From positions 1 through 38,958 of IMG/VR virus record IMGVR_UViG_3300036900_000195: a DNA stretch of 38,958 nucleotides. One strand, written 5' to 3'. Position 1 is the stretch's first letter. Each line of letters begins with the position of its first letter. This document shows, in pieces, positions 1,441-34,568 of the stretch. Under the pieces are notes generated by a model that worked only from the letters and a program-made list of their open reading frames with translations, did not search any database and had not been told where the DNA came from. The position numbers and the translations under genes are program-made. Source of the stretch: a virus.

Positions 1441-1935
1441 TCATCGTAGCCCCTCGCGGGGGAACATCCACCGTTCCCGCTTAACGCCCACGTTCTGCGC
1501 GCGCATCTTCCCTGCCCGCGCCGCCTCAGCCAGCCAGCGCGCCGGCAGCCCGGAGTACTCGGCAGCTTCCCTCACCGTCAGCCAGCGCTTCAGCTTCGGC
1601 TTTTCAGCGGGCGGCGGCAGCGCGCGCATGAGCTGGGCGAGTTGCGCGACAAACCCGGCGGGTGGCTCACCTGGTGAGCTACCCACGACGGCGAGCGACG
1701 GCTTTGGCGCCGCGGGTTCGCCGTAGCGATTCGGCCGCCCGGCGCGGATCGCGTCGATATCCTCGATCGAGTACAGCACCCGCGCCGCGCGCTCGTTCAG
1801 TTGCCGCGGCAGCGTGTTTTTACGGATTTCGCCTTTGGCGGCGCGGTTCTCGAGCTGCCGGATACTGACCCCGAGCAGCTTCGCGGCTTTGTCCTTTGCG
1901 AGCCAGCCGGGCTCGATCGTGAGCGCGTTTTTCAA
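1441..1935 (-). CDS. Two-HTH DNA-binding regulator (candidate lysogeny repressor)
   Basis: This is a 164-residue protein when started at TTG 1935. That start has a perfect GGAGG 8 nt upstream, whereas the longer open frame above it has no signal. Two excisionase/MerR-like helix-turn-helix units are visible: residues about 9-35 (WLAKDKAAKLLGVSIRQLEN) and about 117-145 (WLTVREAAEYSGLPARWLAE), the second followed by a beta-wing-like WMFP end. A proline-rich linker joins them. It is transcribed divergently from the long structural operon and sits directly next to palindromic sequences at 1963-2005. It could therefore repress its own and the rightward promoter. An alternative is an excisionase-type or transposon-like adaptor protein. 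Confidence 0.7.
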   Translation of the reverse strand: MKNALTIEPGWLAKDKAAKLLGVSIRQLENRAAKGEIRKNTLPRQLNERAARVLYSIEDIDAIRAGRPNRYGEPAAPKPSLAVVGSSPGEPPAGFVAQLAQLMRALPPPAEKPKLKRWLTVREAAEYSGLPARWLAEAARAGKMRAQNVGVKRERWMFPREGLR

Positions 1936-1962
1936 TGGTCCATCCTCCGAAACGTGCGCATT

Positions 1963-2005
1963 GCGCGGTATATATCGCGAATTGCGTATGTCGATTATAA
2001 TCGAC
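1963..2005. promoter_or_regulatory. Divergent promoter/operator region with two palindromes
   Basis: Between the minus-strand regulator (start 1935) and the rightward gene at 1988 are a near-palindrome CGCGGTATATATCGCG (1963-1978, 14 of 16 positions symmetric) and a perfect 16-bp palindrome GTCGATTATAATCGAC (1990-2005). The latter contains TATAAT on both strands, so it could be a -10 box for either direction with a bound regulator blocking it. No good -35 box is visible. The perfect palindrome overlaps the first codons of the gene at 1988, which makes that start or that promoter uncertain. Confidence 0.5.
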
Positions 2006-2749
2006 ACCCGCGCTCTCGCGTACAATCCAGGCAATCTGAAAGCGGATTACGTAAAGATCGAGCCGTTTCCCTGCATTAACTGCGGCGCGCGGATCACCGA
2101 AGTACGCTCGCTTTCGGGCGAGCACTGGGGGATCGCCGAGGAGGAAGGCGTCTCCGTTATGTGTGTCCACTGCAGCGCGGTTATGGACGTTAAAGCAGTG
2201 CCCGACCGGATGTTTCCCGGTATTCACTATGCCTACGTGACACTGGATGACGACGGAACAGCCGGCGGAAGCGTCAATCTGCGCTATCCGGCGCGCTTTA
2301 TGCCCGGCCAGTACGCAGATGCGCTGCGGCAGCGGAACGAAGACCTGTTGCGGGTGTGGTGGGGCCCGCCCGTAATACAGCCGCGCCGCAAGTCCTTAAA
2401 CCAGGCACGCAAACGCCGCGAGCACCTCGCGAAGATCCGCGAGAAATGGCAAGAGCACGCGCGGCCGCCGGAGCCGCCGCCGCGCGGTTTCTCTCTGGCA
2501 TCCATTCGCGCGTGTATGGCCTGCGAAAACACGACGCCGATCGGCCAGCCCGATATTCCCGCGCCTTACTACGGCCGGCGAACCCGGAAACCATCGCTCG
2601 ACGACTACGACTGTATGAGCGTTTCTGATGTTTCTGATGTTTCTGATGTTTCTGAGCTTTCTGAGCTATCTGAGCTATCTGAGCTTTCTGAGCTTTCTGA
2701 GCCGACGCCACCGCTGCGGCGGTCCTCGCGTATAATCCGACCCAAATGA
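1988..2749 (+). CDS. Hypothetical zinc-finger-like protein with acidic tripeptide repeat
   Basis: The 253-residue protein starts at ATG 1988, the only standard start codon in the first part of the frame. It has a probable zinc site made of two CxxC pairs about 31 residues apart (CINC near residue 29, CVHC near 60), a basic helical middle region (RKSLNQARKRREHLAKIREK), and a third CMAC pair near 177. Near the C-terminus are nine tandem tripeptides, VSD x3, VSE, then LSE x5. It is the first gene of the long rightward operon and overlaps the next start (ATGA). The family is not recognised. A nucleic-acid-binding role is only suggested by the zinc-like cysteines. Confidence 0.65.
   Translation: MSIIIDTRALAYNPGNLKADYVKIEPFPCINCGARITEVRSLSGEHWGIAEEEGVSVMCVHCSAVMDVKAVPDRMFPGIHYAYVTLDDDGTAGGSVNLRYPARFMPGQYADALRQRNEDLLRVWWGPPVIQPRRKSLNQARKRREHLAKIREKWQEHARPPEPPPRGFSLASIRACMACENTTPIGQPDIPAPYYGRRTRKPSLDDYDCMSVSDVSDVSDVSELSELSELSELSELSEPTPPLRRSSRIIRPK
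2621..2701 (+). repeat. Nine-unit 9-bp coding tandem repeat
   Basis: Units of GTTTCTGAT (x3), GTTTCTGAG, then CTTTCTGAG or CTATCTGAG (x5) run without interruption and stay in frame. They encode (V/L)-S-(D/E) tripeptides. A 9-bp unit lets copy number change without a frameshift, so the acidic tail could vary in length between isolates. Confidence 0.9.
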
Positions 2750-3699: not shown

Positions 3700-4251
3700 A
3701 TGGACGAAGGCGTGTCCGTTTTCCGCCATGCGGCTGCAGTCAGCGGGCGCGTAGCGTGTCCGGAAACCGGCGCTTCAGATCAAAAAGCCTGGTATGCGAT
3801 CCACACCCGGAGCCGCGCCGAGTTTCAGGTACGCGACCGCCTCACCGCAAAAGGAATTGCGGTTTTTTTCCCCTCTCTCGATCGCCCCTCACAGCGCCGT
3901 AATCAGCGCATCACAGTAACGCGGCCGCTGTTCCGCTGCTACCTGTTCGCAAGGGCCGAAAGGCGCGAACTGGTGGCCGTAACGGGCGTTTCGCATGTTT
4001 CGGGACCGCTCGCCGATGAGGATCTCGCCGAAATCCGGCACGCGGTCATGCCCGGCAATACCGGCGGCTTTGCGAATGTCCGCGGCGAGGGCGAAAGCGT
4101 GACAGTAGCGCGCGGCCCGTTCGCCGGCATTACAGGCGTTATCACGCGCCTGGGCCCGCGGCGGCTCGTGATCCGGGCCGCGATTCTCGGCCGCCCCTGT
4201 GTGGTTGAGATCGGCGCGGGCGACGTATTCGGCCGAAGGGCTGCAGCATAG
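3700..4251 (+). CDS. NusG/RfaH-family transcription antitermination protein
   Basis: The 183-residue protein has an N-terminal NGN domain at about residues 30-115, with the family hallmarks WYAIHTRSRAEFQVRDRL and PLFRCYLFAR, and a C-terminal KOW domain at about 131-160 (VTVARGPFAGITGVITRLG). Family members ride on RNA polymerase. Specialised paralogues (RfaH, LoaP, UpxY) suppress pausing and termination over long operons. Here the gene lies near the start of a long rightward operon, immediately before terminase, so a processive antiterminator for late genes is the natural reading. ATG 3700 is used as start, and GTG 3712 is an in-frame alternative. The first 28 residues are outside the NGN domain. 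Confidence 0.88.
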   Translation: MDEGVSVFRHAAAVSGRVACPETGASDQKAWYAIHTRSRAEFQVRDRLTAKGIAVFFPSLDRPSQRRNQRITVTRPLFRCYLFARAERRELVAVTGVSHVSGPLADEDLAEIRHAVMPGNTGGFANVRGEGESVTVARGPFAGITGVITRLGPRRLVIRAAILGRPCVVEIGAGDVFGRRAAA

Positions 4252-23627: not shown

Positions 23628-26600
23628 ATGGCCGCCCTTACGGTAGTCAGTTCCGAACCGCTCCCGCCGCTCACGGTTGTGAGCTCCGAGCCGCTGCCCG
23701 CCGCACCCGAAACCGGCCGCAGCAGCTTTTTCGAGCCCGCAAATCCGGCGCTCAAACCGGCCGGGCACTTTTTCAAGTCGTTTTACGATGACGCGGTTAC
23801 GCCGTTCGTAGACGAGGTGCTCGATACGATCCACCGCGGCGATGTGGGCGCGGGCACGGTAGGAAAGCTCCTCGGCGCGTTTAAGGATCAGCTCTGGAAT
23901 TTTCAGCAGCATCCGGATATACGGAATCTTCCGATCGTAGGGCCCGGCGCGACCGCAACCGCGAACCGGATGCAGGAGCAGTACAACAAGGGCGATTATG
24001 CGGGCGCGCTCGGCTCGGCGGCCGGGTTTGTCGCTCCGCTCGTCGCGCCCGAAGCCGCGGCGGCCGCATGGGAAAAACTGCCGGCAGCAGCAAAAAGCGC
24101 GGCGTCCGCAGTGAGCAATGGCACACGGGGCGCGCTTGAAACGTTCATGGCGGCGAGCGATCCCCGCCGTCTGCTGAAACTGGTCCCGAAGGGGCAGGCT
24201 GCGGTTGACGCTTTCGATGCGGTTCAGGCCGAAAGAGCGGCCGCCCGCGCTGCGCGCACGCCTGCGCCGCCGCCCAATGTAATACGCGAATCTCCCGCAT
24301 GGGCGGATATCCAGCCGTCGCCCGCCGCGGCGACCGATTTCTCCCCGATACCGGCCGAGGGCTTGCCGTCGGGCCGAGTACCCGGCAGCCTCGCCCGCGC
24401 GGAAGCCGCGCGCGCCACGGAAGCCGAAGCGGCGGCAACTCCCGAAGTCAACCGCGACGTTATCGACGAACGCCCGGACGCGCGAACCGTAACCGAGCCA
24501 GCGGCGACGCTGCCGGAACCGTGGCAGGTTCCTAAGTCCGAAATCATCGATTATCGCGATACGCGCCCGCAGCGCACGGCGGCCGCCGCACCCGAAACAG
24601 GGGGCTACACCGAAGCGGAAATGCACGCGCGCACGCTCGAAAACCGCGCGAATGAAGACACGCCGCCCACGTTCAACCGCTACCCGGTCGGCACCTATGC
24701 AAAGGATTCCGACGGCGAGTTGTTACAGCTTCGCCGCTATCCGCTCGACGATCCGAAACTCATCTTTCCCGAGGGGATGCCGCACCCCGGAAACCAGACC
24801 GTTCAGAAATATGTGGACTGGATCGGGCAGGGCTCAGAACCGCCGCCGCTCACGGGTATTGAAACCGAAGCGGGAAATATCAAGATTCAGGAGGGCCACC
24901 ACCGCGCTGAGGCGATCCGGCAGACTGGCGGAAACGCCGCCGATGTCTGGGTAAACCTCACCCATAACAGGCCGATTGGGAACGGGCAGGTAATGGGCGA
25001 GGGCGTAACGCACGAGGGCGCTGTAAGGCGCGCGCTCGATGCGGGCGAAACCGTGCCCGCAGCCGTCCTGAACGATTACCCGGCGCTCATGGCGAAGGCG
25101 AACCCGGCGCAGATCAGCGCCGAGCCCGCCGCGGCAGAACCCGCAAGCGACCTCGAGCAGCAGCTCCGCGCCTCGATCGACCTCGCGAACGCGCGGCGCG
25201 CCGGGACGCCGGCGCTGACGCCGGCCCAGATCCTCGAGGACCACATCGACAAACACAGCGCCTATCTCGCGAATCAGGCCGAGGACATCGTATGGGCGAA
25301 CCGGGCCCGCAAAGCCGACCGCATCGCGCAGCACCTCATCGAAAACAACCTCGAGGCGACGCCCGACAACATAGCTACTGCGGCGCGGCAGCTCGACGAA
25401 GCGCGGCCGCCGTCCGAAGAAACGATCCCGATGATTCAGGACCGCGTCGACTGGCACAACGCGCGCATGGCGCAGGTAGAATCAGGGAGTGCAGGACAGC
25501 CAGCAGCAGCCGGAACAGCCGGCGAAGTGGACGCCGGAACAACTGGCGAAGTGGACGCCGGAACAACTGGAATTCGGCCGCCGGTTTACGAATCGAATCG
25601 CCCAGGCGCGAGAAAAATACGCGCGGCGGGCGATGGAACGACGGTTGAAACCCCCGGCGAAAGTCATACCTATCCGGGCCGATACGAAGTAAGGGAACTT
25701 TCCGAAGTCCAGCCCTCGCACAATCCGCACAACTTCAACCGCAACCCGCGTTACGAATACGAGAACGACCGCAACTACGACGACCCCGAAAATCAGCGCA
25801 AGATAATCGACTGGTCGCAGGGTTCACGCTTCCGGCCGCGCAACCTGCTGAACACCGCGCCCGACGCCTCGAGCGGACCGCCCATAATCGACGGCGACGG
25901 TAATGTACTCGGCGGCAACGGCCGCACCATGATTCTCGGGCGCGTCTATGAGAACAATCCCGCGGGCGCGGCCGCCTACCGGGCCGAGCTCGACCGCACG
26001 GCGGCGCACTACGGGATTGATCCCGAATCCTACGCGTACATGAAACAGCCCGTGCTCGTGCGGCGTGTGGAAGACGGCGCGCTCGAAACGCCCGAGGCGG
26101 CGCAGAAGGCGATTACCGATTTCAACAAAGCCGGCACCGCGGCGCTCACGCCGGCCGAGCGCGCGATCGCCGACGCGCGGCGCGTCTCGACAGCTACCCT
26201 CGAGGACATTTCAAAGCGTATGGACGCGATCGGGCCCGACGCCACGCTCGCGCAGGCGCTCGAGGGTAAATCGGGCGGCGAAGTACTCGCGCGTTTGATG
26301 GACGACGGCGTTATCAGCCCGCAGGAGGGCGCGCAGTTGCGCCGCGGCGGCGCGCTTACCCGCTCCGGGCAGGAGCGGGTATCCGGGCTCATGCTCGGGC
26401 GTTTCTTCTCAAACGCAAAACAGCTCGACTCGATTCCGGATGCGCTGCGCGGCAAAATGGAGCGGCTCGCCGCGCCGCTTGCGCGCGTTGAAGGGAACGC
26501 GGATTATTCGCTTTCGCCGCAGATCAGGCGCGCGCTCGATCTGACTGAAGACGCCGCGGCGCACGATATGACGCTCGACGACTTTACCCGCCAGTCGAAT

Positions 26601-29800: not shown

Positions 29801-29995
29801 ACATTCACCTGGACGAAAAACAGCGCGCCGGGTATCGGGTTCATTGCGCAGGACGTTGAAAAGGTATTCCCCGGCGTCGTCCGGAAGGAAACCGACGGCT
29901 ATCTCTCGGTCGCGTATATGGGGCTGATTCCGGAGCTCGTGAAAGCCATACAGGAACTTACGGCGCGCGTCGCCGTTCTCGAGGGGCATAAATGA
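26894..29995 (+). CDS. Second S74 tail fibre with N-terminal signal peptide
   Basis: In this 1033-residue protein, the N-terminus MKAIILIGALAIAGAPAVYG is a good Sec signal peptide with likely cleavage before Gln. A tail-type domain (LQFFDNAGKPLAGGCIQSYQ ... PVILDAYGRADIWL) follows at about 32-100. Then come four tandem ~165-residue beta repeats (about 130-680), each with TGVGNALLSATTAGLY and ASGTFRITGAG-type motifs. The C-terminus is an S74 chaperone starting at SDARLKTK (about 945) with GIGFIAQDVEKVFPGVV. Such signal peptides are unusual in virion fibres. The stop overlaps the next start (ATGA). Confidence 0.85.
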   Translation: MKAIILIGALAIAGAPAVYGQAAASLSPAPRLQFFDNAGKPLAGGCIQSYQAGSTTPLATYSNAAGAANPNPVILDAYGRADIWLGGGIAYKLVIRAKTTGCAGGGGAILYTTDGIIDQGFSLAHSLQAGTLAIGLRSSPATGAGGGVGVGNALLSATTTGLYVSVNGGAPVLLNGGGGGGSGSPGGPINSVQYNSGAALGGSLNMVWDNPDAIMTICGPPATGCTPNSGFQAPTFSSSATGINNAFETAGGTFTIKGNGDGLFQDLSVTATFNSLATGSTSAIQQASGTFRITGAGAGLFQSVAMGLQAAPVTGIGGGTGVGSAQLSATTAGLYLSLNGGAPALITGGGGAGSPGAPINSIQYNNAGTFAGTANLLWNNSANQMTITGAATAGFQAPAFSSSNSGTAVAYTNSGGTFQVFGNGDGLFQDLSVTATFNSLATGATSAIQQGSGTFRITGAGDGLFQTTALGLKNAAVTGLGGGTGVGNALLSATTAGLYLSLNGAPPVALTGGGGGSGTPGGPATSIQYNNAGAFAGSANLVFNSTANIMTITGGVNAGFQAPVFSSSATGTNAAFVANNGAAQILGNGDATFQNVVVNATFNSVATGATKVIQQSSGTFSITGAGDAGFQSTALGLKAAATTGLGGGTGVGNAMLSATTAGLWLSVNGGAPALLAAGGAPGGPSGAVQFNSGGVFTGNSNFVVTGGGVVTVCAPPAVNCTVNSGYQGPSFSSSATGANPAFVAGNGAGQINGNGAAAFQSLALTGGITVGNGFYGLTGGGALTVSSCSGCSAGVTSWNARTGAVALTKADVTTVEGQGLGTADSVSFNAVTANQHNGGTYAGTLYNCSSAGSSSCFQQSSGRFQINGDGNAYFQSLCVINGFPGSDTCNGVTPAAGSVVGSGISALTLGATIRNTAANYGIAETDTGGNCNIGTAYAGGIGCASDARLKTKIADLPAALAGVLKLRPVTFTWTKNSAPGIGFIAQDVEKVFPGVVRKETDGYLSVAYMGLIPELVKAIQELTARVAVLEGHK
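27280..29000 (+). repeat. Four ~500-bp coding repeats in the second fibre gene
   Basis: Units begin near 27280, 27805, 28300 and 28795. The shared protein landmarks are GGGTGVGNALLSATTAGLYL, SIQYNNAG, GFQAPxFSSS, and FNSLATGATSAIQQxSGTF. They are similar but not identical, with the last the most diverged. Related motifs (ATFNSEATGTTAAVQQYTGT) also occur once in the first fibre (near 16120-16185), so the two fibres share an ancestor or exchange modules. Confidence 0.8.
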
Positions 29996-30306
29996 AACTG
30001 CTTATCGCGCTCGCGTCATTCCTCGTGTTCGCCGCGCTCGCGCAGACGGGCGGTGACGTGACCGCCGGCGGATCCGGGCCCGCGGCCGCGGCGACAATAC
30101 CGCTCGATCATCAGCTCGAGTACTTCCGCACCGACGGCCGGCTCGCGCATCTCCGGGCCGAGCTCGCCGCGGCGAACACCGAATACGAGGCGGCCGTTAA
30201 AGTAGTCGTGAAAGACTGCGGCGAGGGATCCGGGCCCGTGCTGACGCAGGACGGCAGGCACCTTTTCTGCGTGGCGCAGGCGCCCGCGGCCGCGGCGAAA
30301 AAATAA
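29992..30306 (+). CDS. Small exported protein (104 aa)
   Basis: ATG 29992 overlaps the fibre stop. A signal peptide is clear (MKLLIALASFLVFAALAQTG, cleavage likely after ALA). The mature part has a Gly/Ala-rich linker, a helix (YFRTDGRLAHLRAELAAANT), and two cysteines about 19 residues apart (KDCGEG, LFCVAQ) that could form a disulfide in the periplasm. It is coupled to a fibre that also has a signal peptide, so the two may work together outside the cytoplasm. Spanin-like function is possible but not supported by a motif. Confidence 0.65.
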   Translation: MKLLIALASFLVFAALAQTGGDVTAGGSGPAAAATIPLDHQLEYFRTDGRLAHLRAELAAANTEYEAAVKVVVKDCGEGSGPVLTQDGRHLFCVAQAPAAAAKK

Positions 30307-30521
30307 TGGCCGACGATTACACCTGCGACGCCTGCGGAACCCGCACCCACGCCGAGCAGGCGCGCGGTCACTGGCTCGCGCTGCGGCTTGCCGGCGACCG
30401 GCGCGGCATCGAAATCAGGAAATTCGAGAATTCCGGGCCGGATGATCGGTACGTGTGCAGCGCGGCCTGCGCGCTGAGCCGCATATCAGAGGTATTCGCC
30501 GGGCTGCAGCCGCCCCGCTGA
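30306..30521 (+). CDS. Small zinc-ribbon-like protein (71 aa)
   Basis: ATG 30306 overlaps the previous stop (TAATG). A probable zinc site is formed by CDAC near residue 7 and CSAAC near residue 51, with an intervening amphipathic stretch (GHWLALRLAGDRRGIEIRKF). It is the last gene of the long rightward operon. Its stop codon lies inside an inverted repeat shared with the convergent gene. Function unknown, possibly DNA or protein binding. Confidence 0.6.
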   Translation: MADDYTCDACGTRTHAEQARGHWLALRLAGDRRGIEIRKFENSGPDDRYVCSAACALSRISEVFAGLQPPR

Positions 30522-30540
30522 TTCAGCACCCGATCAGCGG
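30515..30540. terminator. Candidate bidirectional terminator hairpin
   Basis: CCGCTGAT (30515-30522) and ATCAGCGG (30533-30540) form an 8-bp perfect inverted repeat with a 10-nt loop. It contains the stop codons of both convergent genes (30521 on plus, 30534 on minus). There is no T-run on either side, so it may work poorly as an intrinsic terminator, but it is exactly where one is expected. Confidence 0.4.
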
Positions 30541-30797
30541 CGCCCGCCGCTGTCCGCCAGCAGGAACAGGTCGCACCGCCCGCGGATCTCGCCGAGCGCC
30601 CGCATTGCGCCCGCGTAGGCGCGCGCCGCGGGCGAATCGCTGATCGACGCCGCGGGCACCGGCAGCGGTTCGATCCCCCGGATCGCGGCGATCGTGGCGC
30701 GCGCCATTTCGGCGCGCGCGTCCATGATGCGCAGGAGCGAATCGCGCGATTCGCACGTTTCGCAGGTTTCGCGCTCGTATCGCGCGGGCACGCTCAC
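30534..30797 (-). CDS. Hypothetical protein, leftward operon (87 aa)
   Basis: GTG 30797 overlaps the stop of the upstream gene (GTGA). The protein is helical, with one CxxC pair (CETCESRDS) near residue 12, then mostly Ala/Arg-rich helices. It is the last of three leftward genes under the promoter at 31879-31907. No family recognised. Confidence 0.6.
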   Translation of the reverse strand: MSVPARYERETCETCESRDSLLRIMDARAEMARATIAAIRGIEPLPVPAASISDSPAARAYAGAMRALGEIRGRCDLFLLADSGGRR

Positions 30798-31447
30798 CGC
30801 CGTACCTCGAGCATGGCTTTCTCAAACTGGATATAGGCGCTGATCGCCGTCGCGCGGACGTCTTCGGGCCCGAAAGTGACCTTGAGCCCGCGGCGGTCGG
30901 CGTACGCCTGCGCTTCGCTGATCGCGTCGATCGACGCCATGTAGCAGGACATCAGGCGCGCGGCGACGGGGTTATCCTGCGAGTGTCCATGTCTCACAGC
31001 GCCGGCGGCGGCGGTCTGGACCTCGGGGGAGGCGGGCGCCGCCGCCGGCAATACGTGGGCGTTACGCTGAAACGCGGCCGGGCCTTCAGAGCGCGCGATC
31101 GCGATCGACTTCTCGAGCTGCGCGGCGGTGTCGTCCGCGGGCGCGCTGAAGCCTTCGGCGAGGCGCTCGACGCGCACGCAATGACCGCCGCCGCGGGGAT
31201 ATTTCACCTTCGTAACGCGAACCGTTTCGCCTTTGCTTACGCCGAGCTCGCGGATCTGGCGCTCGACCTCCGAGCCGTCTTCGGCGTCCAGCCACATGCG
31301 GCGTTCGCCCTCGAGCGTGAAAAGCGCGCGCGGGCCGAATGAGCCGTCGAAAACCTTCGCGGTGAGAAAGCGAAACGCGATGTGCTCCGGGCGGCCGTAT
31401 TCGAGTTTCACTTCGGTCGCGGGCGCTGCTGTCTGTGCGGTTGCCAT
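30794..31447 (-). CDS. Hypothetical protein, leftward operon (217 aa)
   Basis: ATG 31447 has a perfect GGAGG on the minus strand (+ coordinates 31455-31459). The N-terminal ~95 residues look like a beta-rich domain (PEHIAFRFLTAKVFDGSFG, then FTLEGERRMWLDAEDGSEVE and GETVRVTKVKYPRGGGHCVR), which recalls a small OB- or SH3-like fold. The C-terminal ~100 residues are helical (AISEAQAYADRRGLKVTFGP). A single-stranded DNA-binding or transcription-related role is possible. No family is recognised. Confidence 0.68.
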   Translation of the reverse strand: MATAQTAAPATEVKLEYGRPEHIAFRFLTAKVFDGSFGPRALFTLEGERRMWLDAEDGSEVERQIRELGVSKGETVRVTKVKYPRGGGHCVRVERLAEGFSAPADDTAAQLEKSIAIARSEGPAAFQRNAHVLPAAAPASPEVQTAAAGAVRHGHSQDNPVAARLMSCYMASIDAISEAQAYADRRGLKVTFGPEDVRATAISAYIQFEKAMLEVRR

Positions 31448-31470
31448 TTATTTTTCCTCCGAAAAAGTCG

Positions 31471-31872
31471 TTAAGCAGCGGCGGCGAAAGCCGCGCGCTG
31501 CGCGTTGAGCCAGCCGTCGACGGCGAGCGCAACCGGGTTCGCGATCGCGCCGGGCAGCGCGAGGAGCGCCGCGCGCTCCGCATCCGCGCGGCGGTCGATC
31601 GCGTCGATCAACTGATCGAGCGAAGCAACCGCGTCCTCATAAGCGGAGGAATCGCCGATCGGATCCGCCGCCTGAAGCGCCGCGAAACCCGCTTCCACTG
31701 CGTCGCGCTCGGCAGCCGAGGCGAACTGCTGAACAAAAACTGTGTAAGCGGCGCGAAGGTCGGCGATATCGCGGGCGATCGCGCGGGCGGCCGCCGTGCG
31801 GGCGAGCGCGGCCTGCTCGCGTTCGTAGTGGTACGCGTGATCTTCGATCCATGCTTGATAACTGGTTGCCAT
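31471..31872 (-). CDS. Hypothetical helical protein, first gene of leftward operon (133 aa)
   Basis: ATG 31872 is six bases after a -10 box, so the message may be leaderless. The protein is almost all helix, rich in Ala and Asp (YQAWIEDHAYHYEREQAALA, AERDAVEAGFAALQAADPIG), with no cysteine. No family is recognised. Being the first gene of an early-looking unit controlled by an operator, it may be an early function. Confidence 0.65.
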   Translation of the reverse strand: MATSYQAWIEDHAYHYEREQAALARTAAARAIARDIADLRAAYTVFVQQFASAAERDAVEAGFAALQAADPIGDSSAYEDAVASLDQLIDAIDRRADAERAALLALPGAIANPVALAVDGWLNAQRAAFAAAA

Positions 31873-31878
31873 GAGTTA

Positions 31879-31907
31879 AGTATACGTAGCCGCTACGAAG
31901 AATGCAA
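31879..31907 (-). promoter_or_regulatory. Leftward promoter with operator in the spacer
   Basis: On the minus strand: TTGCAT (+ 31902-31907), a 17-bp spacer, TATACT (+ 31879-31884), then six bases and the ATG at 31872. The dyad CGTAGC-C-GCTACG (31885-31897) fills most of the spacer, so a bound repressor would block RNA polymerase. Transcription should start on or next to the A of the ATG, giving a leaderless message. Confidence 0.75.
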
Positions 31908-31925
31908 TACGTAAGTGCCACGTAT
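31907..31925. promoter_or_regulatory. Dyad ATACGT-N7-ACGTAT, possible operator
   Basis: A 6-bp perfect inverted repeat with 7-bp spacing (31907-31912 and 31920-31925) lies between the two CGTAGC dyads, at the upstream edge of the leftward promoter. It may be a second type of regulator site. The binding protein is unknown. Confidence 0.45.
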
Positions 31926-31967
31926 GGTAAATTATTTTCAGGGAGAAAAAAAGATGCGAATCAGCCA

Positions 31968-31988
31968 CGTAGCGCTACGCGCTAAACT
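31968..31988 (+). promoter_or_regulatory. Rightward operator palindrome and -10 box
   Basis: A perfect 12-bp palindrome CGTAGCGCTACG (31968-31979) has the same half-sites as the leftward operator. It is followed by TAAACT (31983-31988), then six bases and ATG 31995. The palindrome falls in the expected spacer of this promoter. The -35 position (around 31960) is poor, so the promoter may need an activator or be weak. The layout mirrors the leftward side and again predicts a leaderless message. Confidence 0.6.
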
Positions 31989-31994
31989 GGATTC

Positions 31995-32174
31995 ATGGCA
32001 GGCACGAACAACGGAGGGAAAGTGTTAGTCGATGTAGCGGCCGCAGGGCGTAAGGGCGGCCATGCCCGCGCGAAGGCGATGACGAAAGAGGAGCGCAGCG
32101 AGAGCGCGCGTAAAGCCGTTCAGGCGCGATGGGCGAAAGCGCCTAAAAAGAAGGCGGCGAAGAAGGCGAAATGA
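31995..32174 (+). CDS. Small basic Lys-rich protein (59 aa), KGG/ARW-type
   Basis: ATG 31995 to TGA 32172-32174. It has the motifs GRKGGHARAKAMTKEERSES and ARKAVQARWAK, followed by a histone-like Lys/Ala tail (KAPKKKAAKKAK). The pattern 'KGG... MT..ER...ARKA...RW' is frequent in small DNA-binding and antitoxin-like proteins (from memory). It is the first gene of the rightward unit, next to the palindromic operators, so it may be the regulator. It ends overlapping the next start (ATGA). Confidence 0.65.
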   Translation: MAGTNNGGKVLVDVAAAGRKGGHARAKAMTKEERSESARKAVQARWAKAPKKKAAKKAK

Positions 32175-32632
32175 ATAAATTACGGATTCAGGCCATTCTG
32201 GCGTTTGCGCTCATCTGCGCGCCGCTCACGGCCGCGCAGCCGGTTTACCAGGTGCTTCTCGAGGTGACTGCGCCGGATGACTCGGGGCTGAAGACGAGGA
32301 TTATCAGCGCCGCTTCGCGAGAACTTCGCAAGCTCGGTGATGTCACCGTGGCTGACGAAAAAAATTCCTATTTTGCTTTGCATATTATCGCTATGCGCAC
32401 TAAGAACAGAGCAGGGGTTGAAACCGGTTATGCTTTCGCAGCTACGGCGAACTGGTCGAAAACAGGCGCCGAACAGTCGAAGGCCGAAAACTGGATAACT
32501 ACATTCCTGATGTCAGATTCGGACCTTGATGCCCTATGTGTGGACACGGTGGCGACTTTCGACACCGAAATACTGAACCGAGCCCGAAAGATGTTTGCCG
32601 CGGCGCCCCGCGCCGGGGAAGACCCGAAATAA
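32171..32632 (+). CDS. Exported hypothetical protein (153 aa)
   Basis: A signal peptide is visible (MNKLRIQAILAFALICAPLT, cleavage likely after TA-A). The mature protein has an alpha/beta pattern (VYQVLLEVTAPDDSGLKTRI, TVADEKNSYFALHIIAMRTK) with Asp/Thr-rich segments and one Cys near residue 123. It follows the small regulator-like gene in a unit close to the integrase, so it could be expressed in the lysogen, for example for surface change or superinfection exclusion. Family not recognised. The stop overlaps the next start (TAATG). Confidence 0.65.
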   Translation: MNKLRIQAILAFALICAPLTAAQPVYQVLLEVTAPDDSGLKTRIISAASRELRKLGDVTVADEKNSYFALHIIAMRTKNRAGVETGYAFAATANWSKTGAEQSKAENWITTFLMSDSDLDALCVDTVATFDTEILNRARKMFAAAPRAGEDPK

Positions 32633-32829
32633 TGGACCCAGAACTGAAAGAGCTTTTTGCTGTGCTGATCGGCCAGCAGACCGCTACCTCAAAATCAATC
32701 GGCGATCTGGCCGAAACGGTCACGAAATACGTGGCCGCTTCCGATGCCCGCATGGCGCGCCTCGAAGAGAACCTCGACGGCCTGATCCGCGCCATCACCA
32801 GCGAACATTCGAACGGCAAAGCGCACTAG
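32632..32829 (+). CDS. Small helical protein (65 aa)
   Basis: ATG 32632 overlaps the previous stop by one base. The protein is a single amphipathic/coiled-coil-like helix, acidic at the start (MDPELKELFAVLIGQQTATS) and with heptad-like ARMARLEENLDGLIRAI. It may oligomerise. Function unknown. Confidence 0.55.
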   Translation: MDPELKELFAVLIGQQTATSKSIGDLAETVTKYVAASDARMARLEENLDGLIRAITSEHSNGKAH

Positions 32830-32837
32830 AAAGCGAA

Positions 32838-32969
32838 ATGATTAACGGGAAGACGCGACTGGATCAGGGTGGATGCGGCCTCACTATATTCGCCGGCATT
32901 TACGCCTGCGCGCTTCTCGGCGGCCTTTATCTGTTAGTCCGGTTCATTCACTGGGCATGGACTAATTAG
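32838..32969 (+). CDS. Small membrane protein (43 aa)
   Basis: ATG 32838 to TAG 32967-32969 encodes 43 residues with one hydrophobic helix at about 14-38 (GLTIFAGIYACALLGGLYLL) and a short polar tail. It lies 8 bp after the previous gene, so it is probably in the same unit. Its last four bases overlap the convergent integrase gene. Possible partner of the exported protein upstream; function unknown. Confidence 0.5.
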   Translation: MINGKTRLDQGGCGLTIFAGIYACALLGGLYLLVRFIHWAWTN

Positions 32970-33637
32970 CGCCAGTCCCGGTTACGCTCCCACGCCGCGG
33001 CGCGCCGGCGATCGCTGAAGTGCATGTAAACCTGGGTGCTTTTCGCCGCCCGGTGCCCGAGCCAGTCCTGAATCTCATCCGCCGAATTGCCGCGCTCGGC
33101 AAGGTGCGTCCCGCACGAGTGCTTGAGCGCGTGCATGTGCGCCTTCTCGGGCCGGATCCCGGCGTCGGCGCAGTAGCGCCGGAATAACCGGTCGAGCTGG
33201 TTACGGTGGATCCCGAAGCCGCCGGCGCGCCGCTGCCGCGAGGGAAACAGCGGGCCCGGTTCGCGTCCGCGGATCCGGATCCACGCGCGCAGCGCCTGCG
33301 CCTCGACGGCTACCAGGCGATGATCGCGCGATATCGAATTCTTTCCGCGGCGGACGTGTAACAGCCCGTCGCGCTCATTCCAGTCGGAGAGCTGCAGTAA
33401 TCCGGGTTCGCTCGAGCGCAGCCCGCGGTGGTAGACGAGCCGGAATATCGCGCGATCGCGCGGCGTGCGGATCACGTCGAAAAGCGCGTCCACCTCGCCC
33501 TGCGTCAGATACGAAGAATCGGGATTTGCGGTGTACGCGCGGCGTATCCGCGGCGGGGCTTTCCGCGGGGTTTTTCCCGACGCCCGCGGCTGTTTCCGGG
33601 GCTTTTTCGGTGAGTCAGTCTGAGCATTTTGACTCAC
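32966..33637 (-). CDS. int: Tyrosine recombinase (integrase)
   Basis: The 223-residue protein starts at GTG 33637. It has the tyrosine-recombinase catalytic set: R74 in YHRGLRSSE, K99 in RRGKNS, H169 and K172 in HMHALKHSCGTHLAERG (Lys where most members have Arg), H195 in LGHRAAKS and the nucleophile Y204 in QVYMHF. The N-terminal SAM-like core-binding domain is missing, replaced by a ~35-residue basic tail. An upstream in-frame GTG (33712) would add 25 more basic residues. It integrates and perhaps excises the phage genome, which makes this a temperate phage. Confidence 0.88.
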   Translation of the reverse strand: MSQNAQTDSPKKPRKQPRASGKTPRKAPPRIRRAYTANPDSSYLTQGEVDALFDVIRTPRDRAIFRLVYHRGLRSSEPGLLQLSDWNERDGLLHVRRGKNSISRDHRLVAVEAQALRAWIRIRGREPGPLFPSRQRRAGGFGIHRNQLDRLFRRYCADAGIRPEKAHMHALKHSCGTHLAERGNSADEIQDWLGHRAAKSTQVYMHFSDRRRAAAWERNRDWR

Positions 33638-33710
33638 ACGGCGCGTTTTTGCCTGTTTTTTCGCTGGTTTCTGCTTCTGCGGCGTCTTACCGTCCGAACT
33701 TTTTGACTCA
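33611..33710. repeat. Three TGA(G/C)TCA motifs at the integrase 5' end
   Basis: TGAGTCA at 33611-33617 and TGACTCA at 33630-33636 and 33704-33710 are the same 7-bp near-palindrome. The last two sit at the two possible start codons. They may be arm-type sites or operators for integrase or excisionase, or an accidental duplication of the basic tail, since GTGAGTCAAAA begins both start regions. Confidence 0.4.
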
Positions 33711-33712
33711 CT

Positions 33713-34079
33713 CAGTAACCGCTGTTTTTTGGGCGCCTTCGCGGCGCGCGGAAGTGCGGGGCGTTTTCGTGAGGACGTAATAGCCTGATCTTACAGCTAT
33801 TCCGGGGTTCAGGAAAGTACGGCCTTCGGCGCCCGTCACTGCACACAAGGGCACACGACGGGGGGCTGAAAAGTCGGAATTCCGACCCGTTCGCGCTGCC
33901 GCCTCCCTGCCCTCCGCTTTCGGGCGTATGCTGTAAGCAATGATCGGCCCTGCGTCGTTGGGGGCCGCTGGTTGCAAATACACGGGCAAAACCATTCAAT
34001 CTTCGATTTGATGTACTCAGCAAAACGGCCCGCTCCGGGTAATACCGGAACGGGCCGTTTTGTTTTACACTTCCCTGAA
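33713..34079. other. Non-coding region, probable attP and terminator
   Basis: No convincing gene is present: the open frames here lack ribosome sites and phage-like composition. The stretch lies beside the integrase and carries the strong hairpin at 34021-34066. A phage attachment site is most often next to the integrase, so attP is expected here, but no tRNA-end-like sequence or other core could be recognised. Confidence 0.4.
34021..34066 (+). terminator. Strong Rho-independent terminator
   Basis: CAAAACGGCCCGCTCCGGG (34021-34039) pairs with CCGGAACGGGCCGTTTTG (34045-34062) around a short loop, with one mismatch. The stem is followed by TTTTA. The same hairpin with its A-rich 5' side could also act leftward, though less well. 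It separates the integrase region from the small rightward genes. Confidence 0.85.
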
Positions 34080-34262
34080 ATGCCTAAAGTGTTTCGCTGC
34101 GCAGACTGCGGACACCCGGACTCGCGCGACGAGACGCACGCGCAGGGCTGCCCGCACGTTCCGGCGCTCTCAAAAGAGGAACTGATCGCGCTCGCGCGGA
34201 TCGTCGAGGCGCAGGCGGCGGAAAAGGAAGCCGCGGTGCGCGACTGGCGCCGGGCGTCATAA
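34080..34262 (+). CDS. Small zinc-finger-like protein (60 aa)
   Basis: ATG 34080 comes after the terminator. TACACT at 34066-34071 could be the -10 of its own promoter. The N-terminal half has a probable zinc site (CADCGHPDSRDETHAQGCPH; C-x2-C...H...C-x2-H), the rest is one helix (KEELIALARIVEAQAAEKEA). It ends in TAA, which is also the start of the next gene's TAAACT. Function unknown. Confidence 0.55.
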   Translation: MPKVFRCADCGHPDSRDETHAQGCPHVPALSKEELIALARIVEAQAAEKEAAVRDWRRAS

Positions 34263-34265
34263 ACT
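34260..34265 (+). promoter_or_regulatory. Candidate leaderless -10 (TAAACT, six bases before ATG)
   Basis: TAAACT lies exactly six bases before ATG 34272, the same hexamer and spacing as upstream of ATG 31995. No -35-like box is evident 17 bp upstream. Its first three bases are the stop codon of the previous gene. Confidence 0.4.
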
Positions 34266-34271
34266 CTCTTT

Positions 34272-34568
34272 ATGCCAAGCGATCCGCGTGTTGCAACCGC
34301 GCAGGCAATCGAAGCGGCGCTGATCTCGCCGAATGAGACAGATCGGAATGGCGAGGCCGCGAATGTGGTCGACGGCCTTTTCGCGATCGCCCGCTCGCTC
34401 GACGGCGTAGCCAACGCGCTGCGCTACTTTACGAACTCAGTTGTTACCGACAAACTGGACGGGGCGCTCAGGGGATTAGCCGCTCTCGAGTTTGTGCCGC
34501 ACGTAGCGGATGCGATTCGCGAGCTGGAGATAACGTGTCCTCTGGTAACAGAGGGCGCGCCGGAATGA
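34272..34568 (+). CDS. Hypothetical protein (98 aa)
   Basis: ATG 34272, with no Shine-Dalgarno; see the leaderless -10 at 34260. The protein is helical (QAIEAALISPNETDRNGEAA, GLFAIARSLDGVANALRYFT), with one Cys near the end. The stop overlaps the next start (ATGA). No family recognised. Confidence 0.55.
   Translation: MPSDPRVATAQAIEAALISPNETDRNGEAANVVDGLFAIARSLDGVANALRYFTNSVVTDKLDGALRGLAALEFVPHVADAIRELEITCPLVTEGAPE

Follow-up and report, generated by a model that had tools for sequence, protein, structure and literature searches.

In phage lambda, the cI gene (transcribed from PRM) adjoins operators that are shared with a divergent promoter, and the CI protein activates transcription at PRM. 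The C proteins of restriction-modification systems, in turn, are HTH proteins of about 80 amino acids that are encoded next to restriction and methylase genes. Published accounts add leaderless messages to this picture. The lambda cI message is leaderless (PMC9031893), and in the immB region of PY54 both cI and cro are leaderless, with their promoters arranged around the operator region (PMC4488713). In a cryptic prophage of E. coli O157:H7, paaR2 and ydaS diverge from a region of 97 bp in which two regulators bind operators, and paaR2 was found to be leaderless by 5' RACE (PMC8630535). The C proteins of AhdI, PvuII, Csp231I and EcoRV are small autoregulators with a palindromic ‘C-box’ in their own promoter; their transcripts are often leaderless, and a divergent form is described for EcoRV, the C transcript of which is itself reported not to be leaderless (PMC4824078, PMC5333194).

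The present report concerns a virus record 38,958 bases long (‘the window’, by which the whole stretch of analysed DNA is meant), in which a short control region separates a leftward operon from a small rightward gene, termed KGG. The virus probably infects Acidobacteriota, a major soil phylum whose phages are known mostly from metagenomes. To our knowledge no switch has been characterised for Acidobacteriota phages, and a literature search, mostly at the level of titles and abstracts and covering few subscription journals, found no description of a KGG-type switch in Acidobacteria. On balance, we favour a reading in which the control region serves a phage of Acidobacteriota, probably a temperate one, as an autoregulated switch between divergent genes: KGG would bind palindromes and control transcription in both directions.

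Comparison with the described systems places this locus close to several of them and inside none. PY54 encodes a lambda-like CI and Cro, whereas no HTH match was obtained for either gene flanking the control region, and the operon that begins with the left gene has another function; paaR2/ydaS controls a toxin-antitoxin operon, and the genes of the window show no match to these families. The likeness to C proteins lies in the palindromic box within KGG’s own promoter (O2 and O3 in the window), but KGG is without an HTH match and its neighbours are not restriction or methylase genes by Pfam or PHROGs. As in lambda, several related operators are common to divergent promoters (in the order O1, promoter, O2 in four regions); a lambda-type cI/cro pair was nevertheless rejected, because the 31471 and 31995 products have no HTH match and no CI or Cro homologue adjoins them. 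Similar TACGTA palindromes lie around a TTGAC -35 in five hicA-like loci (by eye), but membership of hicAB was rejected, since neither of the genes flanking the control region matches hicA or hicB. The best reading is that KGG would work in the manner of C proteins or of leaderless phage repressors while standing outside those families. The initial annotation had thought the switch different from the lambda cI/cro region; this holds for the proteins (no flanking HTH) and not for the logic, which is already represented by lambda cI, PY54, paaR2 and the C proteins. A bolder reading makes KGG a possible new regulator family.

Anatomy and conservation of the control region

On its sequence features, the stretch from 31872 to 31995 is an AT-rich divergent control region: the G+C content of its intergenic part (31873-31953) is 38%, against 64% for the whole window. 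Its elements are listed in Table 1, together with the genes discussed below.

Table 1. Positions of promoter elements, candidate operators and genes in the window
Feature	Position	Strand	Remarks
Leftward -35, TTGCAT	31907-31902	-	exactly 17 bp from the -10
Leftward -10, TATACT	31884-31879	-	six bases, then ATG at 31872
Predicted operator O1, ATACGTAGCCGCTACGAAG	31882-31900		in spacer of leftward promoter; overlaps leftward -10
Predicted operator O2, ATACGTAAGTGCCACGTAT	31907-31925		touches leftward -35; directly upstream of TGG-TAAATT
Extended -10 TGG-TAAATT, perhaps a second promoter on the rightward side	31925-31933	+
Shine-Dalgarno-like AGGGAG	31940-31945	+	before 24-codon ORF; direct reading
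Putative 24-codon ORF	31954-32028	+	other frame, overlaps KGG gene start; direct reading
Operator-like dyad O3	31965-31982		core CGTAGCGCTACG at 31968-31979; spacer position of rightward -10
Rightward -10, TAAACT	31983-31988	+	six bases, then KGG ATG at 31995
KGG gene	31995-32174	+	59 aa, basic product; leaderless candidate, candidate autoregulator
153-aa protein	32171-32632	+	signal-peptide-like N terminus by eye; start codon overlaps KGG stop
Integrase gene	32966-33637		Pfam/PHROGs; adjoins control region
Left gene	31471-31872	-	133 aa; first of leftward operon; ATG 6 nt after TATACT
Second leftward-operon gene	30794-31447	-	217 aa; family in leftward operons of other KGG loci
HTH protein, MerR/excisionase-like	1441-2034		two HTH-like stretches; about 30 kb from region
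NusG-like protein	3700-4251		PF02357, E=8.6e-12; PHROG transcription antiterminator

The initial annotation had pointed to TATACT-N6-ATG on the left, with TTGCAT 17 bp away, to TAAACT-N6-ATG on the right, and to two dyads, one per promoter, at the site of the spacer; all of these are where it had placed them. TTGCAT matches the consensus -35 at just three of six positions, and the rightward TAAACT has no recognisable -35 (TCAGCC, ATCAGC and AATCAG lie at 16, 17 and 18 bp). No Shine-Dalgarno sequence precedes the ATG at 31995 by direct reading; both starts have a -10 at 6-7 nt, the rightward box without a -35, and no Shine-Dalgarno sequence, as is typical of leaderless genes. The CGTAGC-C-GCTACG dyad at 31885-31897 and the core of O3 are each found only once in exact form within the window. 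O3 lacks the outer bases and is shorter; it has a core half-site in common with O1 and O2. The annotation had not included O2, which is among the best conserved parts of the region, and O1 and O2 are the only sites in the 39 kb within two mismatches of the 19-bp pattern ATACGYAN5TRCGTAT.

Perfect dyads of 12 bp occur 38 times in the window and those of 13 bp 24 times; inverted repeats (arms of 6, loops of 0-8) number four in 31860-31996, two of them overlapping, where 0.87 would be expected per 124 bp, so that the dyads by themselves amount to a modest excess, and it is the conservation in relatives that lifts the control region beyond chance. A consensus promoter scan of 29900-34500 returned a single site (chance expectation 1.1) and reported neither of the promoters described here. 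That one chance-level site (leftward TTCGCA-18-AATAAT, 31960-31931, minus strand) would, if used, provide the left gene with a leader about 50 nt long.

Relatives were sought in the collection viral_contigs by the pattern of two successive operators, which yielded 12 stretches. In three (L102, L110 and L107, the last being the same as L101) the divergent region recurs together with the small gene next to it; five stand before hicA-like genes (by eye), and four are of other kinds. In an alignment of the four control regions (the window and these three relatives), O1, the leftward promoter and O2 are kept, and an operator sits between the leftward -35 and -10 in all four. The leftward -35 is TTGACA in the three relatives versus TTGCAT in the window, and the -10 reads TATACT in L101, TATGCT in L102 and TATAGA or TAGACT in L110. 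On the other side, the distance from the -10-like box to the KGG ATG is 6 nt in the window and 7 nt in the three relatives, with TAGAAT in L115 (the L102 contig), TAAAAT in L116 (the L110 contig) and TATAGT in L119 (the L101 contig); in L101 this box, TGG-TATAGT, occupies the place of the window’s TGG-TAAATT. A comparable O3-like dyad lies before the KGG -10 in L102 and L110 (by eye), and in a further relative (G002, L099) the gene order is kept with half-sites of TGCTTG/CAAGCA instead (by eye).

Promoters on both sides with spacer operators, a single operator type and a rightward gene of leaderless type, all features that had been proposed from the window, thus recur in relatives. The claim of two leaderless outputs fares differently on the two sides: the rightward type recurs, but in each of the three relatives the left gene is preceded by a leader in which a Shine-Dalgarno-like sequence occurs (AAAGGAG in L101, GCGGGAG in L110, GGAGGG in L102), so that the two-sided arrangement, and with it a leaderless left gene, looks confined to this phage.

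The hicA-like stretches (L104, L106, L109, L111 and L112) carry pairs of TACGTA-type operators around a TTGAC -35, and those of L104, L106, L109 and L111 are identical. The L101 record (related record G024) also contains, at L101:636-1400, an ORF that resembles a sigma-70 family factor by eye, and after its KGG gene a different signal-peptide-like ORF (by eye).

The 133-aa left gene has no Pfam or PHROGs match above cutoff, no relative by pattern in viral_contigs, and none in the 29 records searched, a search that was run without a positive control. The family of the 217-aa gene occurs at 12 of the 58 loci in the neighbour clustering described below (the window included) and in three of 29 records; a pattern search of viral_contigs found no relative of the protein, nor did a search of INPHARED phages. 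On the right, the overlap between the KGG stop and the start codon at 32171 suggests that the 153-aa gene is probably co-transcribed with KGG, and its exported-looking product would fit a prophage-maintenance operon. The integrase gene next to the control region suggests that the phage is probably temperate. Its large terminase is at most 81% identical to those of other IMG/VR records (for the best 80 of 142 relatives) and less than 60% identical throughout to those of 167 deposited phages.

The KGG family, its leaderless-type starts and candidate operators

The product of the 31995 gene and its relatives have in common the motif GRKGGxARAxxMTxEERSESARKAVQARW, and the N terminus (MAGTKEPVLVDVA versus MAGTNNGGKVLVDVA) is kept in L102, which supports the start at 31995; an alternative start, the GTG at 32022 behind GGAGGG, was rejected because the conserved N terminus lies upstream of it. 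Profile searches with KGG found 77 loci in viral_contigs and 21 in genome contigs, and in 20 of the latter the titles name Acidobacteriota (the remaining one names Rubrobacteraceae), which indicates an Acidobacteriota host for the KGG family.

Among 33 members, no Pfam or NCBIfam family was matched above cutoff, HTH and ribbon-helix-helix families included, and no HTH family at E<=0.05. The nearest family is the actinobacterial IHF, with weak matches in four of the 33 (best E=0.017); PF10685, the ‘KGG stress repeat’, also matches four of the 33 at E<=0.05 (best E=0.015) and was rejected, with 14.8 bits against a gathering cutoff of 20.4. KGG matches two PHROGs, both of unknown function. AlphaFold predicts three helices (residues 14-28, 31-46 and 49-58; mean pLDDT 76.6), with a pTM of 0.42 that, together with the lack of any match in the PDB by Foldseek or VIA, makes the fold uncertain; the KGG profile gave only matches of E 0.2 and above against PDB sequences. 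KGG had no match at E<=1 among INPHARED phages, and the KGG of L195 none at E<=0.01 among PLSDB plasmids.

The spacing of promoter and start was compared across the family by a simple rule, which required a -10 (four or more of six matches, with A as its second and T as its sixth base) at 6-7 nt before the start codon. Such a box precedes 15 of 56 viral KGG genes versus 18 of 517 ORF starts that served as controls within these loci (p=3e-8), and the distribution of -10 distances in the viral loci peaks at 6-7 nt; the other 41 have no box there by the strict rule. Shine-Dalgarno-like 4-mers precede 8 of the 56, against 140 of the 517 controls. The 56 are what remained of the 77 after omission of 10 proteins above 130 aa, two loci without a usable start, five duplicates of upstream sequence and four loci whose start codon was too distant from the motif (L173, L185, L188 and L189). 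Because the pattern had been suggested by L102, L110 and L101, which recur in this set as L115, L116 and L119 (L143 and L151 were also known beforehand, as L005 and L008), the genomic loci provide the cleaner test: there the box is present at 9 of 19 loci versus 7 of 194 controls (p=3.7e-7), two of the 21 having no start in view. Seven genomic loci have a perfect TATAAT (in L195 and L204 with TTGACA upstream, by eye), and four more have a -10-like box at 12 nt from the ATG. Leaderless spacing is, by this computation, a trait of the KGG family. It also fits the host phylum, given that a survey counts 13.3% leaderless genes in three Acidobacteria genomes (PMC3160421).

The candidate operators also go with KGG. 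Palindromes of the form ATACG...CGTAT, with at most one mismatch, lie upstream of 27 of 71 KGG genes, where shuffling predicts 1.42 and control ORFs give 18 of 660; the remaining 44 loci have no operator by this rule, and some of the one-mismatch operators (for example, in L141 and L160) may be due to chance. A test that ignores the letters and asks for perfect 7-bp arms gave 20 of 71 (3.4 expected; 8.5% of 667 controls). These tests, and the comparison of lengths below, took 14 of the 19 genomic loci, and the omission of the other five (L200, L202, L203, L207 and L212), made after no clear promoter with an operator had been seen there, favours the KGG reading; with the five counted as misses, the first figure becomes 27 of 76.

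In 11 Acidobacteriota genomes, the 20-bp operator (up to three mismatches) occurs at 15 distinct places in eight genomes (three have no match), and 14 of the 15 adjoin a KGG gene, the exception lying within a long open frame; a reversed control pattern gave two matches. As the genomes were chosen through KGG, the result speaks to the operator being found almost nowhere else, not to its presence at every KGG gene. Reciprocal scans of viral contigs found eight exact operator matches, three of which adjoin KGG genes that were already known and five of which lie inside open frames of 160-477 codons.

The length of the operator also goes with that of the protein. Wherever the KGG protein contains a 4-residue repeat (GGxKGG or a similar one), the operator measures 20-21 bp (13 of 13 loci), and wherever this insert is absent it measures 18-19 bp (14 of 14), an agreement of 27 out of 27 for which a Fisher test, which ignores kinship, gives 5e-8. 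On a tree built with the insert removed, two supported independent pairs (four on the best tree) change in the same direction, and with 2-4 independent changes the match is not significant by a sign test.

The neighbours of KGG genes were clustered over 58 loci, five of which were replaced by longer stretches of the same contigs. A YqaJ-type exonuclease cluster accompanies six KGG loci (Pfam was applied to L121), with other recombination-like genes as well; IS1-like transposases are neighbours in L005, L008, L156, L195, L197, L204 and L206, called by Pfam for L195 and by clustering or by eye for the rest. A serine recombinase directly follows KGG in L194, L198, L201 and L209 (by Pfam for L198, by eye for the others), L193, L196 and L199 have no conserved neighbour by eye, and no regulator was recognised by eye among the clusters of at least four loci, few of which were family-searched. 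Since the loci were gathered through KGG, its occurrence at each of them carries no information, unlike the variety of its partners; that variety, with KGG constant beside it, is the main reason for preferring KGG as the regulator.

Candidate regulators and the proposed switch

The anatomy of the region, its conservation, the leaderless spacing, the association of operators with KGG and the match of operator to KGG length are computed results; the working of the switch would follow from them along these lines. The KGG message would begin at or very near its AUG. KGG would then bind palindromes of the type ATACG-N8-11-CGTAT, presumably directly, and occlude RNA polymerase at the leftward promoter (O1 lies in its spacer, O2 at its -35) and, through O2 and O3, at its own start, so as to limit itself. 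With KGG present, the leftward operon (from 31872 leftwards) would be off by repression; with KGG lost, it would come on, including the recombination genes found in the leftward operons of some relatives, and the state served by the switch would be lysogeny. Given the absence of a -35 at 31983, KGG binding might also activate its own promoter, as CI does at PRM.

Against KGG as the regulator stand its lack of a recognised DNA-binding domain and the existence of an HTH protein, the 1441-2034 product, which is its chief rival. On the same side weigh several results given above: the length match that is not significant, the few viral operator matches beside KGG, the missing rightward -35, and the loci at which the rules used found no operator or no -10 at 6-7 nt. 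The initial annotation had named the 31995, 31471 and 1441 products as candidates; the first of these now has the strongest support. If the 1441 product were the repressor acting on the dyads, KGG would be a mere regulated output (a nucleoid-like or partner protein). In its favour are an HTH_17 match at E=2.8e-9, matches to excisionase and MerR PHROGs and, among 12 related phage records, homologues in eight. Against it, its gene and the control region are about 30 kb apart in this record, no homologue turned up in four of the 12 records (all possibly fragments), the operators follow KGG to places without recognised phage genes (beside IS1-like neighbours, and at 14 of 15 places in genomes) and their length goes with that of KGG; we regard this explanation as unlikely. 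A host transcription factor (for example, a LexA-like global repressor) might instead own the palindromes and be exploited by the phage, and the recurrence of one palindrome type in phages, mobile elements and genomes of a single phylum would suit it. The half-sites and their spacing vary between elements, however (G002 being an example, by eye), and the near confinement of the 20-bp operator to KGG genes in the 11 genomes, with no spread over a regulon, led to rejection of a host regulon; a host factor is thereby left very improbable.

A different doubt concerns the transcript rather than the regulator, and is compatible with KGG in that role. Rightward transcription may start from TGG-TAAATT, with TAAACT a chance resemblance, in which case KGG would here have a leader containing AGGGAG and the 24-codon ORF. 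TAAACT indeed lacks a -35, TGG-TAAATT lies where L101 has its KGG promoter, and AGGGAG at 31940 is well placed before the ATG at 31954; but L102, L110, L101 and others likewise have a -10 placed 6-7 nt before KGG, and the ATG at 31995 has no Shine-Dalgarno sequence before it, so that a leader is rather doubtful, if still worth bearing in mind. That the palindromes serve recombination or RNA hairpins, and are not operators at all, would accord with the transposases or recombinases that often lie beside KGG genes. Recombination sites would not need a fixed place relative to -35 and -10, and yet the palindromes hold theirs in four aligned regions and, in the window, lie upstream of both leaderless starts; such a role appears the most improbable of all.

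Beyond this one phage, the proposal may be widened: KGG proteins may form a new family of minimal DNA-binding regulators (a helical core of about 45-65 aa), common to phages, IS1-like elements and free-standing Acidobacteriota genes and expressed from leaderless starts, in which the insert of a 4-residue GG repeat sets the spacing of operator half-sites (18-19 versus 20-21 bp). We offer this more as a conjecture than as an expectation. Were KGG the regulator, it would be a very small repressor, made from leaderless messages in phages as well as in transposons, and a 4-residue repeat would encode the length of its target. The rule of operator, -10, 6-7 nt and start codon would find KGG genes together with their right start codons, and an unannotated small protein becomes a testable regulator.

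Several observations lie to the side of this argument. KGG-like genes are divergent from IS1-like transposases in L195:2950-3777, L008:2752-3702, L156, L197, L204 and L206, and several of these loci have more than one operator between the two genes, possibly marking a regulated mobile element. In L194, L198, L201 and L209 (all Acidobacteriota MAG loci), the gene accompanying KGG encodes a large serine recombinase, and the distance from the -10-like box to the ATG is 12 nt, not 6-7. P63C-domain proteins (PF10546) in L150, L147, L153, L176 and L186 have an N-terminal KGG-like motif and, in all of these except L147, inverted repeats just upstream (by eye), as KGG genes do; they differ in their size (300-350 aa), in their half-sites (GCTATCGC or TGCTTGC) and, for L150, in a Shine-Dalgarno-like sequence. 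Within the window, a 24-base inverted match of 92% links 25982-26005 (in a structural gene) with 31790-31813 (in the left operon gene), possibly by chance, as both sides are G+C-rich coding sequence. Finally, the NusG-like gene precedes the terminase genes and is a candidate for a phage-encoded antiterminator.
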